DNA from: Fluviicola sp. XM-24bin1
GTDB taxonomy: Bacteria; Bacteroidota; Bacteroidia; Flavobacteriales_D; Crocinitomicaceae
DNA length: 64,000 nucleotides
Assembly: GCA_003149635.1 (NCBI GenBank)
Contig: QCWI01000001.1
Location: forward strand, 374,588 to 438,587
Direction: 5' to 3'
The translations under genes were made by a program, and so were the position numbers. The first letter of the stretch is position 1. Each line of letters opens with the position of its first letter. The notes beneath the pieces were generated by a model. That model saw nothing but the letters and a program-made list of their open reading frames with translations. It was not told where the DNA came from and ran no database searches. Below, piece by piece: positions 3,361 through 32,109 of the stretch.

Positions 3361-4022
3361 TGCAATCTATCGTCTTGCTCCATGGAGCATTGGGTTCCGA
3401 TCGACAAATGGAACCGTTAAAAAACCACCTTTCTGAAAAATTTGATGTGCATGTACTTTGTTTCGAAGGACATGGAGGTCGAAACGGTTCATTAGCAATT
3501 CAGAATTTCTCGGAGAATTTGACCGAATTTCTAAATGAGAATAACCTGAAAAGTCCTTTGGTTTTCGGATACAGCATGGGAGGATATGTGGCATTGTACA
3601 CCGAAGCAAAATTGCCGGTAACGTTCGAGAAAATCGTGACGCTAGGAACCAAATTCAATTGGAATCCCGACGTTGCAGCGAAAGAAGTACGCATGTTGAA
3701 TCCTGAAATCGTGGAGGAAAAAGTACCGAAGTTTGCGGCTCATTTGTCCCGAATGCACGAACCCAACGACTGGAAAGAAAACATGCGAAATACGGCTGCT
3801 ATGATGGAAGCCATGGGAGAGAATCCGCCATTAAATGAAGTCGATTTATCCAACGTACAATGTCCTGTACATTTATTGCTTGGAGAAAAGGACATAATGG
3901 TTTCCGAAGATGAAACACTTGTGATCAAAGACCAATTGCCCAATGCTCAATTCAATATTTTGGATGGAGTAGAGCACCCCATTGAGAAGTTGGAATTGGG
4001 GACGTTAGGCGCGTATTTGTAG
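3360..4022 (+). CDS. Alpha/beta hydrolase, 220 aa
   Basis: This is an alpha/beta-fold hydrolase. The oxyanion region HGALGS appears near residue 8, the nucleophile elbow GYSMGG near residue 63, an acid candidate in LLGEKDIMVSEDE and the catalytic His in DGVEHPIEKL close to the C-terminus. The length fits small esterases or lipases of the YfbB/MenH-like group, but the substrate is unknown. The start is the ATG at 3360, which shares its A with the upstream TGA; a TTG three bases earlier is less likely. Confidence 0.85.
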   Translation: MQSIVLLHGALGSDRQMEPLKNHLSEKFDVHVLCFEGHGGRNGSLAIQNFSENLTEFLNENNLKSPLVFGYSMGGYVALYTEAKLPVTFEKIVTLGTKFNWNPDVAAKEVRMLNPEIVEEKVPKFAAHLSRMHEPNDWKENMRNTAAMMEAMGENPPLNEVDLSNVQCPVHLLLGEKDIMVSEDETLVIKDQLPNAQFNILDGVEHPIEKLELGTLGAYL

Positions 4023-27886: not shown

Positions 27887-28000
27887 CTAAAAATCCGCAT
27901 ACATAAACGAGATCTTCTCGGTATCCTTATCCATTAGAAGATAGACCACCACTGCTGCGATGATCAAGGCAAACGTTATGCGATACACCCATTTATTCAT
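27887..28000 (-). CDS. DltX-like transmembrane microprotein with C-terminal FxYxxF acyl-shuttle motif, 37 aa
   Basis: A 37-codon frame begins MNKWVYR, then has one transmembrane helix (about residues 8-23), then a short tail ending in the hexapeptide FMYADF. Lys and Arg before the helix predict an inside N-terminus and an outside C-terminus. Its ATG overlaps the stop of the DltD-like gene (ATGAATAA), so translation is coupled. In Gram-positive Dlt systems the microprotein DltX carries an extracytoplasmic FxYxxF end whose Tyr takes the acyl group from the MBOAT and hands it to a DltD-type transferase. Order, topology and motif all agree with that role; the substrate is unknown. Confidence 0.8.
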   Translation of the reverse strand: MNKWVYRITFALIIAAVVVYLLMDKDTEKISFMYADF

Positions 28001-29156
28001 ACAAGTGTTTTTTAATGCGTTCGTACAGTAAATACCCTCCGTACATAGAATGATGTTGTTTGTCGATGAAGGAGCCCGGTGTTGTTGAGATGTCCGTTGC
28101 GTCGATGTGATCGAAACCGGATTCTTTGAACTTTTTTCTCAATCGATCTTCCAACTCTTCGTGCTGCTTTACAATTTCCGGTTGTCCACATTTCTCTGCA
28201 AGAATCCGGTTGTAAGGGCCGAGGACAAATGTCACCTTGATGTTCAGTTGTTGGCACAAATCCATGAAGTAGTCCAAAGCAGTGTTCCTATATTCGGCAT
28301 CTAGAATCAACGGTAACATGGAGTAATCACCTTTATCAATGAATTCTTGTGTGCAGTTGAAATCAGGAACAATTTGCGATTGCAATTCTTCTAGCATTTC
28401 AGGCTTCCCGCGTTTTTTGGCCGGAACATAATCCAGATGTTCTGTGACATGCAAAATGGCTTCTTGTTCGATTCCAAGATAGTTGCGCAATCTGCCGTAG
28501 TATAGTTCGTGAATTTCCTGATCTAAGAATCGGTTCACAGCCGACATCTTCGCTTTCATGTATCCTTGTTGTCCGCCACTGAAAAGGATGTCGAAATCGT
28601 CCTTTCGTTTTGATTTCTCCCGGGCGCGTTCCACTTCGCCGTCGTTCATGTAGCGCGTATGGTATTCATTGTTGAATTTTGAGAGGCTTTCACGCCAATA
28701 CACTGGATTGACAACAACGATCATATTCTGCTCTTGCCAAATCTCAGGATTGTTCAGCATGGACGGAATGTAACGCTCGCAGGATCTTCCCGCGCCGTAC
28801 AGCACGCCAAATTGCTCTTCAATTTGCTCGTCGGCATTCAGAAGCTCCCAATAATTATAACTGTCCAAAAAGCCGGATTCCGATGTTCCCAATACCAATA
28901 CATCGTTGTTCTTTTTAAGCAACTTCATGAACTCATGGAAATACGCATCATCGTCTTTTACATGCGTAGCGTCCAAAGTTAGGAAGCTGTCTCCGTTATT
29001 TTCTGGTAGTTCGATATTTTCTGAAGAGGATGGAAGGAATATAAAAGCGTACAGCCCGGCTAAAACAACCAAGATAATCGCAAGCATGCCTGTTTTACCC
29101 ACTTCCTTCAAAGTTGAGAAACGATAAAACTTCGATATGTACTTCTCTATTTTCAT
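27993..29156 (-). CDS. DltD-like SGNH-type acyltransferase, membrane anchored
   Basis: A 387-residue protein with one N-terminal helix (about residues 20-42) and a large extracytoplasmic domain. The catalytic Ser block VLGTSESGFLD corresponds to the GxSE motif of DltD, and near the C-terminus IDKQHHSMYGGYLLY supplies the Asp/His end of the triad. VVVNPVYWRESLSKFNNEY and FVLGPYN fit the DltD pattern. DltD accepts acyl groups delivered by DltB/DltX and passes them to the final polymer. Four-base overlap with the MBOAT gene; stop overlaps the microprotein. Confidence 0.82.
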   Translation of the reverse strand: MKIEKYISKFYRFSTLKEVGKTGMLAIILVVLAGLYAFIFLPSSSENIELPENNGDSFLTLDATHVKDDDAYFHEFMKLLKKNNDVLVLGTSESGFLDSYNYWELLNADEQIEEQFGVLYGAGRSCERYIPSMLNNPEIWQEQNMIVVVNPVYWRESLSKFNNEYHTRYMNDGEVERAREKSKRKDDFDILFSGGQQGYMKAKMSAVNRFLDQEIHELYYGRLRNYLGIEQEAILHVTEHLDYVPAKKRGKPEMLEELQSQIVPDFNCTQEFIDKGDYSMLPLILDAEYRNTALDYFMDLCQQLNIKVTFVLGPYNRILAEKCGQPEIVKQHEELEDRLRKKFKESGFDHIDATDISTTPGSFIDKQHHSMYGGYLLYERIKKHLYE

Positions 29157-30379
29157 TTCATTCCAAACAATGTCTCAAAAACTAGCGTCAAATCCTCTCC
29201 TTTATAATGGAAGAATAGCCAGCCAATCGTTACGAAGGCAAAAGTGAGTGTGATTCCAGATAATGTGACCAATAGTTGTTTTGTTGTGCTGCCATTTCCA
29301 TGCAGGCGCTTAAATGATCCGGTCGAGCTCCAGATTTTAAAAATCGCCAATCCGAGGGCGTGCCACAATCCCCAATAAACAAAGTTGACCGTGTCGCCGT
29401 GCCAAATCCCACAAATGAAGAACGTTAAGAAATATCCAATTATAGAAACGGCATTTCGATAGGGTTTGAGTCCTGTTTTGTTGATGAGCTGCACAATCGG
29501 TTTGAAGATGAGATCGCGCAAAAACTCCGAAAATGTCATGTGCCACTTGCGCCAAAAAGCAGCAATATTAGTTGTTAGATATGGGCTGTCGAAGTTTTCC
29601 GGTGTTTTAATTCCCATGATGTATCCAGTGCCAATGGCGATATCCGAATAACCGGAAAAATCAAGGAAGATGTAAGCTGAATAACAGACCGCACTGAGTA
29701 AAATGGCAACTTGCGGCGACATGAACTCCAAGAAGGGTTCGTAGCTCAAAGCATACATGCTGAACAATGGAATGATTGCATATTTCTTCAAAAAGCCGAT
29801 TACGATTCTTCCGACTCCTGGCCAAAACAATGCGTTTTTCAATCTGCCTTCCGGTCGTGTGAAGTGCCTTTGAAAATTGGAGAACTTGTCAATGGGCCCT
29901 GCAAGAAAATTGGGGAAGAACAGAATGAAGTTGATGTAATCAATAGGATTTTTTGCCGTCAATCGTCCTTTTAATGCGTCTACAATCGACTGAATATTTC
30001 GGAAGAGGATGTAACTAATCCCCAATCGTTCGATTAATAGTTCGGGTGAATTGCCCAATTGAAAAGATTCAAATCCAAAAGCTTTTGGGTAATTCCTCAG
30101 ACAGAAAAGCACAATTAGAACCAATATAGAAATCGTGGCCAATACGGTTCCGCGCTTGTTTCTGTTTCTGGCTAGAACGGCAAGTGCTCCAAAAACCAAA
30201 AGCGAGATAAAGACGTGGATTCCGATGGTTGCCAGCGATATAATGGTAGAAAGGATGATAATGTTTCCAATAAAAAGAACCAATCGCTGGGCTGCAAGTG
30301 GCAGATATTTCCTCGTTGCCCACTGAAACAGAAGGAAAAATAGGATGAGGAAAAATTCAGCTCCGGAGGAGAATAACAT
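29153..30379 (-). CDS. MBOAT family O-acyltransferase (DltB/AlgI-like)
   Basis: A polytopic MBOAT enzyme, 408 aa from the chosen ATG at 30379 (the frame extends 17 codons further, but MLFSSGAEFFLILFFLLF is the usual family start). Conserved blocks are FFPNFLAGPI, DFSGYSDIAIG, FWRKWHMTFSEFLRD and GIWHG..GLWHA, containing the candidate catalytic His327 and His340. It moves an acyl group across the membrane to an outside acceptor. Unlike MBOATs that carry the shuttle peptide themselves, its C-terminus (ETLFGMK) has no FxYxxF motif, matching the presence of the separate microprotein. No DltA or DltC donor is nearby. Confidence 0.9.
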   Translation of the reverse strand: MLFSSGAEFFLILFFLLFQWATRKYLPLAAQRLVLFIGNIIILSTIISLATIGIHVFISLLVFGALAVLARNRNKRGTVLATISILVLIVLFCLRNYPKAFGFESFQLGNSPELLIERLGISYILFRNIQSIVDALKGRLTAKNPIDYINFILFFPNFLAGPIDKFSNFQRHFTRPEGRLKNALFWPGVGRIVIGFLKKYAIIPLFSMYALSYEPFLEFMSPQVAILLSAVCYSAYIFLDFSGYSDIAIGTGYIMGIKTPENFDSPYLTTNIAAFWRKWHMTFSEFLRDLIFKPIVQLINKTGLKPYRNAVSIIGYFLTFFICGIWHGDTVNFVYWGLWHALGLAIFKIWSSTGSFKRLHGNGSTTKQLLVTLSGITLTFAFVTIGWLFFHYKGEDLTLVFETLFGMK

Positions 30380-30516: not shown

Positions 30517-32109
30517 ATGAAATCATCTACACTTTTAATGGTTTTGGTCTTTGTGTTTACGGCAGGATTGGCAAGTGCACAGGGAAAAGTTGAATGGGGA
30601 GACCTAGAGAAAAGCACCGGGCGATTGATTGATGTGATCCCGGATCAAGGAGAGAATTTTTATGCATTGCGCCGCAGCGGTGGAGCGCTTTTCGGGAGAC
30701 TGGAAGGATCCTATCACAAAAATCTTGAGCTAATCACTAAAGGCAAATTAGAACTTCGTGCAAACGATAGCCCAGCAAATTTCGAAGCTGCGACAATGGT
30801 TGGGGATAAGTTTGTTGTATTTCTCTCAGATCGACAAGAAGGTGAAAATAAATTCTTCATGCAGGAGTACGGCCAAAATATAGAGCCAACTTCAGAGGCA
30901 GAAGAATTAGGTTCTTATATCCTTGAAAGTAAAAGACGCCGTTTCCAAGGGACGTTCAATCTGTATCAATCGGAAAGCCGAGATTACTTCGCTGTGGTTT
31001 GGACGATTCCGGGAAAAAGAGAAGAGCAAGCTACCTATGGATTCAAGGTGTTTGATGCTGATTTAGAACTCTTGAACGAAGGAGAATACGAAGTGCCGTT
31101 TGAAGAACAGTTCTCTACAATTGATGGATTTTACTTGTCTGATTTTGGAGATTTGTTCGTGACAATTACGGAGTACAAGGAGTCGGAAGAAAAGAAACTG
31201 TTCCGCAATTTCGCCGATTACGTCTCAGTGCACATTTACCACTTGAAAGAAGGAGATATTGAAGAGATGGAAATCGATTTGGATGGAAAGCGCGTGGAGG
31301 CAATGTCTTTCAATTCGGATAACGAACGAATTTTCGTGATTACGGGAATTTATGGTGATAAAGAAGCGAGTGGAGTAAAAGGGTTGTTCTATCTAAAAGC
31401 AGATTTTAAAAAGCAATCCATTCTGAACGAAGGATTTGAAGAATTTGGGGAAGACTTTATTATGTCTGATTGGAGTGATCGTCAAAAGAAAAAGCAGGAA
31501 AAGAAAGAGAAGAAAGGCAAGGCGAAAGAACCAACGCTTTATAGTTACATTATGCGTGAGGTGCATCCTATGGAGGATGGGTCAATTGTCGGGACTATGG
31601 AGCAATACTACGTACGTGTTGTGACGAATTATAACGCACAGACGGGAACAACGACAACTACGTACTACTATTATTACAATGATGTGGTGGTGTACAAAGT
31701 AGGCTCTGATGGTGGTTTTGAGTGGTTGGCAAAAGTGGATAAATACCAAGTGTCAACAAACGATGGTGGGTACTTCAGTTCTTATGCACGCTACGTAGAT
31801 GGCGAGAAGTTGGTGTTGTTCTTTAATGACAACTCAGATAATTATAACGAAGTCTCGGGCGAGTTTGAATTGGAACCTGGGAAGTCAGTGCGTTCTTCAC
31901 GACTTTCAAAAAAGAAAAATACAGTGGCGATTTGTGAGATCGACCTTGAAACGGGTGAGGTAAGTCGTGAAATGTATTTCGATCGAGAAGAGCTTGGGGC
32001 TATAGTGGTTCCGAAATTATTTAACGTGGATTATAGAACCAACGAAATGTTGTTCTATGCGATTCGAGGTAAAAAAGAACAATTCGGTCGCTTGGTTTTT
32101 GGAGAGTAA
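30517..32109 (+). CDS. Secreted hypothetical protein, 530 aa
   Basis: The signal peptide MKSSTLLMVLVFVFTAGLASAQ is clear. The mature part looks like a mostly beta-sheet protein with repeated short strands of the form xxxFYALRRxxG, KFVVFLSDRQ, DYFAVVWTIP and KLVLFFNDNS, suggestive of a propeller-like fold, plus a Lys-rich loop near residues 327-345. There is no T9SS tail and no catalytic motif. It starts 137 bp from the divergent MBOAT gene; the relationship is unclear. No family recognised. Confidence 0.72.
   Translation: MKSSTLLMVLVFVFTAGLASAQGKVEWGDLEKSTGRLIDVIPDQGENFYALRRSGGALFGRLEGSYHKNLELITKGKLELRANDSPANFEAATMVGDKFVVFLSDRQEGENKFFMQEYGQNIEPTSEAEELGSYILESKRRRFQGTFNLYQSESRDYFAVVWTIPGKREEQATYGFKVFDADLELLNEGEYEVPFEEQFSTIDGFYLSDFGDLFVTITEYKESEEKKLFRNFADYVSVHIYHLKEGDIEEMEIDLDGKRVEAMSFNSDNERIFVITGIYGDKEASGVKGLFYLKADFKKQSILNEGFEEFGEDFIMSDWSDRQKKKQEKKEKKGKAKEPTLYSYIMREVHPMEDGSIVGTMEQYYVRVVTNYNAQTGTTTTTYYYYYNDVVVYKVGSDGGFEWLAKVDKYQVSTNDGGYFSSYARYVDGEKLVLFFNDNSDNYNEVSGEFELEPGKSVRSSRLSKKKNTVAICEIDLETGEVSREMYFDREELGAIVVPKLFNVDYRTNEMLFYAIRGKKEQFGRLVFGE

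Follow-up and report, generated by a model that had tools for sequence, protein, structure and literature searches.

Does a 37-residue protein encoded beside an MBOAT enzyme and an SGNH protein act as their acyl shuttle in a Gram-negative bacterium? The question arises from a 64,000-nucleotide stretch of DNA (the window) from Fluviicola sp. XM-24bin1. A sequence-only reading of the window had described an MBOAT gene, an SGNH gene and a microprotein gene that overlap end to start, and the open reading frame (ORF) coordinates agree (Table 1). The MBOAT and SGNH genes share 4 bp, and the SGNH and microprotein genes share 8 bp. The MBOAT has an alternative in-frame TTG start, which would give 425 aa. 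Beyond it lies a divergent gene of 530 aa that begins at 30517. On the other side, rplU, rpmA and serS, named by reading their sequences, follow the microprotein gene on the same strand. Promoter and terminator scans returned no more sites than were found in shuffled sequences.

Table 1. Features of the three-gene operon, in window coordinates
Feature	Position	Strand	Description
MBOAT gene	30379..29153	minus	408 aa from ATG; Pfam MBOAT match
His280	29540-29542	minus	invariant in MBOAT
His327	29399-29401	minus	invariant in MBOAT
SGNH gene	29156..27993	minus	387 aa; DltD-like; N-terminal membrane helix
Microprotein gene	28000..27887	minus	37 aa, single helix; proposed acyl shuttle
C-terminal hexapeptide FMYADF	27890..27907	minus	tail of the microprotein
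Tyr34 codon	27899-27901	minus	proposed acyl carrier; place and motif match the Tyr that is acylated in DltX and PatA

Translation of the smallest ORF gives MNKWVYRITFALIIAAVVVYLLMDKDTEKISFMYADF (37 aa), one helix that ends exactly in FMYADF, as had been read. The MBOAT was also correctly described as having no FxYxxF tail of its own. Its C-terminus, ...LTLVFETLFGMK, stops 21 residues past a conserved GW and contains neither the motif nor a Tyr tail.

We propose that the three proteins form an envelope acyltransferase that probably works like the DltB–DltX–DltD core, without DltA or DltC. A cytoplasmic thioester, carried by CoA or by the cell's housekeeping ACP, would supply the MBOAT with an acyl group that is most likely short, for example acetyl (step 1). 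The microprotein tail would enter the MBOAT from the periplasmic side, where His327 would assist passage of the acyl group to Tyr34 (step 2). From the acyl-Tyr tail the group would next move to Ser92 of the SGNH protein, which is anchored in the membrane (step 3), and that protein would finally esterify a glycan hydroxyl in the periplasm or at the cell surface (step 4). The topology and both covalent intermediates, acyl-Tyr and acyl-Ser, are inferred from characterised relatives; the tails of DltX and PatA are acylated on the motif Tyr (PMC12148441). The identities of the acyl group, the donor and the acceptor are guesses. Counting against a Dlt-like shuttle are the lack of a Pfam DltX match, the absence of donor and acceptor genes next to the operon in the window, the mostly polar residues at the DltC contacts and the moderate quality of the SGNH model.

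Possible acyl donor and acceptor

The contact between DltB and its carrier protein DltC has been assigned to five named DltB residues in L. plantarum (PMC9338922). By alignment, the equivalents in the window MBOAT are K293, V296, Q297, N300 and R308. Most of the hydrophobic contacts have been lost, leaving mostly polar residues (K293, Q297, N300). Tail-less MBOATs with a separate microprotein are referred to here as the split type. At the carrier-docking site the Bacteroidota split clade has a longer segment, of DltB length, and lacks the PLGG motif that is found in nearly all of the tail-bearing rows listed. Because a DltB-like segment replaces PLGG at this site, acyl-CoA cannot simply be assumed as the donor.

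Between acyl-CoA and a carrier protein, we lean slightly towards acyl-CoA as the probable donor, since PatA, the characterised carrier-less relative, has a fused tail and uses acetyl-CoA (PMC12148441). No donor gene adjoins the operon in the window. The alternative concerns the donor only: a carrier protein, either the housekeeping AcpP or an unlinked ACP, would supply the MBOAT, possibly with a group longer than acetyl. This is the less likely source, but it has a serious claim. The DltB-length segment and missing PLGG of the Bacteroidota clade speak for it, as do a carrier protein gene adjoining the MBOAT gene at a distant split locus (L091) and AcpS- and FkbH-like genes at Micrarchaeota loci. 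Against it, a carrier gene lies beside the operon in none of the Bacteroidota loci examined, and the PatA precedent also points the other way.

For the acceptor, a surface glycan is our best guess. No acceptor gene adjoins the operon in the window, and no neighbour there indicates a polymer. At another locus (L067), the operon lies amid genes for DegT, two cytidylyltransferases, NeuB and a flippase-like protein, which is a surface-glycan cluster. Glycosyltransferase genes lie near the operon at L040 and L074, and a gene for a Wzz/GNVR chain-length protein is present at L091.

Separate and fused tyrosine tails

Loci of the fused and the split type were collected from a scan of genome contigs and from loci fetched from genomes. 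The resulting set held 91 MBOATs: 66 tail-bearing, 23 tail-less and two true DltB loci. A locus was scored when a separate membrane microprotein ending in YxxF was encoded within 3 kb on the same strand. Such a microprotein was found at 19 of the 23 tail-less loci, at none of the 66 tail-bearing loci and at both DltB loci. The opposite-strand control gave 1/23 and 0/66, respectively. Four split-type loci fell outside the automatic rule because of contig ends or odd placement. L064 and L077 are at contig ends, and the missing part of L064 is apparently on L028, from the same genome. L073 has a longer open frame upstream that ends in FIYTDF, and L079 has a divergent 37-aa ORF upstream (3369-3482) that ends in FIYINF. 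On inspection, three more of the 23 tail-less loci have a YxxF microprotein. Fisher's test on 19/23 versus 0/66 gives p of about 8e-16 with relatives counted as independent, a value that overstates the evidence because the sets are defined by the tail itself and the relatives are not independent. A stronger argument is the phylogenetic spread.

The lengths of the proteins reflect the same division. After the conserved GW, tail-less MBOATs have about 21 residues and tail-bearing MBOATs a median of 100. Split MBOATs end some 80 residues sooner, where the fused ones bear an extra tail segment. In an unrooted tree of 60 rows, tail-bearing MBOATs fall on one side and tail-less MBOATs, including DltB, on the other (support 97/94; recovered in 98% of bootstrap trees). 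Columns occupied in fewer than 60% of rows had been dropped, which should include most tail columns. A larger quick tree shows the same division with support of 92. Because their branch is long, the exact neighbour of the DltB rows is unsure. On the tree a single change separates the fused type from the split type, with true DltB on the split side. That change could be one fusion or one fission, because the tree has no root. A broader reading is evenly poised. Shuttling by a separate microprotein may characterise a wide class of MBOAT/SGNH machines beyond Dlt, mostly without DltA and DltC and with differing donors (Bacteroidota, Bacillota without DltC, Patescibacteria and archaea), with the PatA/AlgI-like MBOATs derived by one fusion or the split class by one fission.

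Two irregular cases arose in the survey. Genome G011 was considered as having two copies of the locus; the SGNH ends on its two contigs are nearly identical, and one locus is more likely. At L122 (4632-6050), a tail-type MBOAT is in pieces and its tail resembles a 65-aa microprotein (FAYQNF). This locus was excluded from the counts.

The microprotein could instead be a structural or assembly subunit, with the acyl group passing straight from the MBOAT to the SGNH protein or to a lipid. Small one-helix proteins frequently stabilise membrane complexes. Yet over 20 microproteins, true DltX included, Y34 and F37 are the sole invariant residues, while the helix varies freely. A purely structural role also sits poorly with the mutual exclusion of microprotein and fused tail. 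We consider this role improbable and retain the acyl shuttle as the preferred reading.

Comparison with Dlt and other MBOAT/SGNH systems

Both enzymes had been called Dlt-like from their sequences, and further comparison upholds this. The MBOAT matches Pfam MBOAT at 1.4e-24, and DltB is its best solved relative. It scores 228 bits against the DltB equivalog model TIGR04091, below the cut-off of 375, and the true Lysinibacillus DltB scores 528-529 bits. The predicted MBOAT structure (pLDDT 89.4) is closest in fold to solved DltB, with Z 35.0 and 3.6 A over 388 residues; the next family, PORCN, gives Z 28.5.

The SGNH protein scores 32 bits against Pfam DltD (cut-off 22.7) and 32.3 bits against the DltD equivalog TIGR04092 (cut-off 150). 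Ser92, Gly123, Asn150 and His368 are invariant over 16 rows, and Asp365 is nearly so. A PDB search with the single sequence gave weak chance matches only. With the family profile, DltD chains came first (E 3.8e-8). The model, of moderate confidence (pLDDT 76.5), is closest to DltD, with Z 22.5-23.1 (4.2 A over 302 residues for the match at 23.1). Other SGNH proteins reach Z 13.8 or less, and PatB stands far lower among the fold matches.

The resemblance is weaker for the other Dlt components. Pfam DltX (PF12459) does not match the microprotein at E up to 10, and the Lysinibacillus DltX matches at 1.6e-14. The earlier label "DltX-type" holds for an analogous role and place, but not for the Pfam family. 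DltA and DltC had been presumed absent, and their scores in the window's genome (99.9% complete) bear this out. The best DltA match, which is ligase-like, reaches 98.8 bits (cut-off 559.85), and the best DltC match, weakly carrier-like, reaches 13.1 bits (cut-off 52.35). In 16 further split-type genomes no DltC scored above the cut-off, and both positive controls were detected. A true Dlt system, with DltA and DltC encoded elsewhere and D-Ala transferred to an envelope polymer, would explain why the MBOAT and SGNH proteins are closest to DltB and DltD, and why the MBOAT has the longer DltB segment at the DltC-docking site. The sub-cut-off scores in a nearly complete genome, the 16 further genomes and the failure to retain the DltC contact residues make it very unlikely, and we rejected it on the DltA, DltC, DltB and DltX results together.

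Our preferred reading, a Dlt-like shuttle outside Dlt, shares features with several known systems. Like the Dlt core, the operon has a tail-less MBOAT, a DltD-type SGNH protein and a separate one-helix microprotein that ends in the shuttle motif, and the closest folds are those of DltB and DltD. Unlike Dlt, which D-alanylates teichoic acids in Gram-positive bacteria, it occurs in a Gram-negative host, has changed DltC contact residues, lacks DltA and DltC and encodes a microprotein outside Pfam DltX. Its gene order is B-D-X, in contrast to X-A-B-C-D in the Lysinibacillus dlt operon. PatA and PatB, which O-acetylate peptidoglycan, are likewise an MBOAT and an SGNH protein in Gram-negative bacteria and follow the acyl-Tyr hexapeptide logic (PMC12148441). 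However, PatA has the motif on its own C-terminus rather than on a separate protein, and the SGNH protein here is DltD-like. AlgI-type systems (alginate and cellulose acetylation) also use an MBOAT with SGNH-type partners to acylate an exported glycan, but tail-bearing MBOATs occupy the opposite side of our tree, on which named AlgI and Wss proteins were not placed. As expected of the MBOAT/SGNH acyl-Tyr-shuttle class, the operon encodes an MBOAT with the catalytic His, the SGNH residues and FxYxxF, the last in trans.

Non-Dlt MBOAT/SGNH pathways have been said to lack a DltX-like microprotein (J Biol Chem 2025, PMC12148441). The operon and its relatives are a clear exception to this statement. 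Searches of an open-access library turned up no account of such microproteins outside Dlt; most subscription papers and all preprints lay beyond the search, and priority is not proven. The operon opens the shuttle peptide to study in trans outside D-alanylation, since a small separate tail protein can be removed, altered or exchanged while the MBOAT is left intact. The microprotein is likely an essential subunit of an envelope enzyme, and one easily overlooked. The operon likewise opens the history of fusion in the PatA/AlgI-like family to testing.

Conservation and spread of the microprotein

The microprotein is a real gene. Among the window's 560 ORFs of 28-75 aa, no other ends in YxxF. At loci of tail-bearing MBOATs, 7 of 4115 ORFs in this size range have such an end, and only one of the 4115 combines it with a membrane-like segment. 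In four relatives of the window's genome, the microprotein gene always lies immediately after the SGNH gene, and the products are 49-70% identical with an invariant YADF end (SFMYADF or TFLYADF). Between the window and L061, dN is 0.16 and dS is 1.2. The last eight codons, compared among the window, L061, L062 and L063, have 0 nonsynonymous and 2-4 synonymous differences. Beside MBOAT–SGNH pairs the end is kept across Bacteroidota and in other phyla. The earlier reading had named a lack of such conservation as refuting, and the idea withstood that check. The proposed FxYxxF match needs a small amendment: YxxF is invariant, but the first position is F, Y or T in relatives. Although the ORF is very short and Pfam and NCBIfam scans gave it no credible match, its conservation, the purifying selection on it and the locus survey make it virtually inconceivable that it is only a random frame behind an ordinary MBOAT–SGNH pair, and the synonymous-only changes in the tail and the rarity of YxxF ends rule this out.

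The overlapping operon is conserved among Flavobacteriales relatives. At L061 and L063 the same three-gene set likewise precedes rplU, rpmA and serS, and at L028 an L21 gene, confirmed by Pfam, follows the microprotein gene. Within Bacteroidota the split type occurs in Flavobacteriales, Crocinitomicaceae, Marinilabiliales and Bacteroidales, and a named strain, Crocinitomix catalasitica ATCC 23190, is among the relatives. It is rare there, with a clear match to the split-MBOAT profile in 2 of 395 sampled genomes, the window's own among them. It was also found in Bacillota (Ammoniphilus, Syntrophomonas, Peptococcaceae and a Bacillaceae MAG), in Patescibacteria (Ca. Peribacter and one other MAG), and in a Rhodospirillales (alphaproteobacterial) MAG and Micrarchaeota. 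Several of these hosts are MAGs, and their names and binning are given as labelled.

The window's own genome encodes two further MBOATs (L029 and L030), with fused tails FIYYRF and FVYLQF and neighbours that look SGNH/AlgX-like by eye. In Crocinitomix and Bacteroidales, four loci (L066, L067, L068 and L069) combine a separate microprotein with MBOAT C-terminal extensions (ORFs of 425-636 aa), which have no Pfam match where scanned. The SGNH gene at L068 (6538-7695) is split into two ORFs in a MAG, both with blast matches, reflecting a sequencing error or a real break. At L077 and L079, in Micrarchaeota MAGs, Pfam identifies AcpS-like and FkbH-like/GNAT genes together with the split-type MBOAT gene, and these loci may serve an ACP-fed (glyceryl-type) archaeal surface acylation. 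At L091 (5016-7622), an MBOAT, a PP-binding carrier protein and a microprotein ending in FVYEKF are followed by a 348-aa protein without a Pfam match. With its polysaccharide-like neighbourhood, this locus is a putative carrier-containing split system outside known Dlt.
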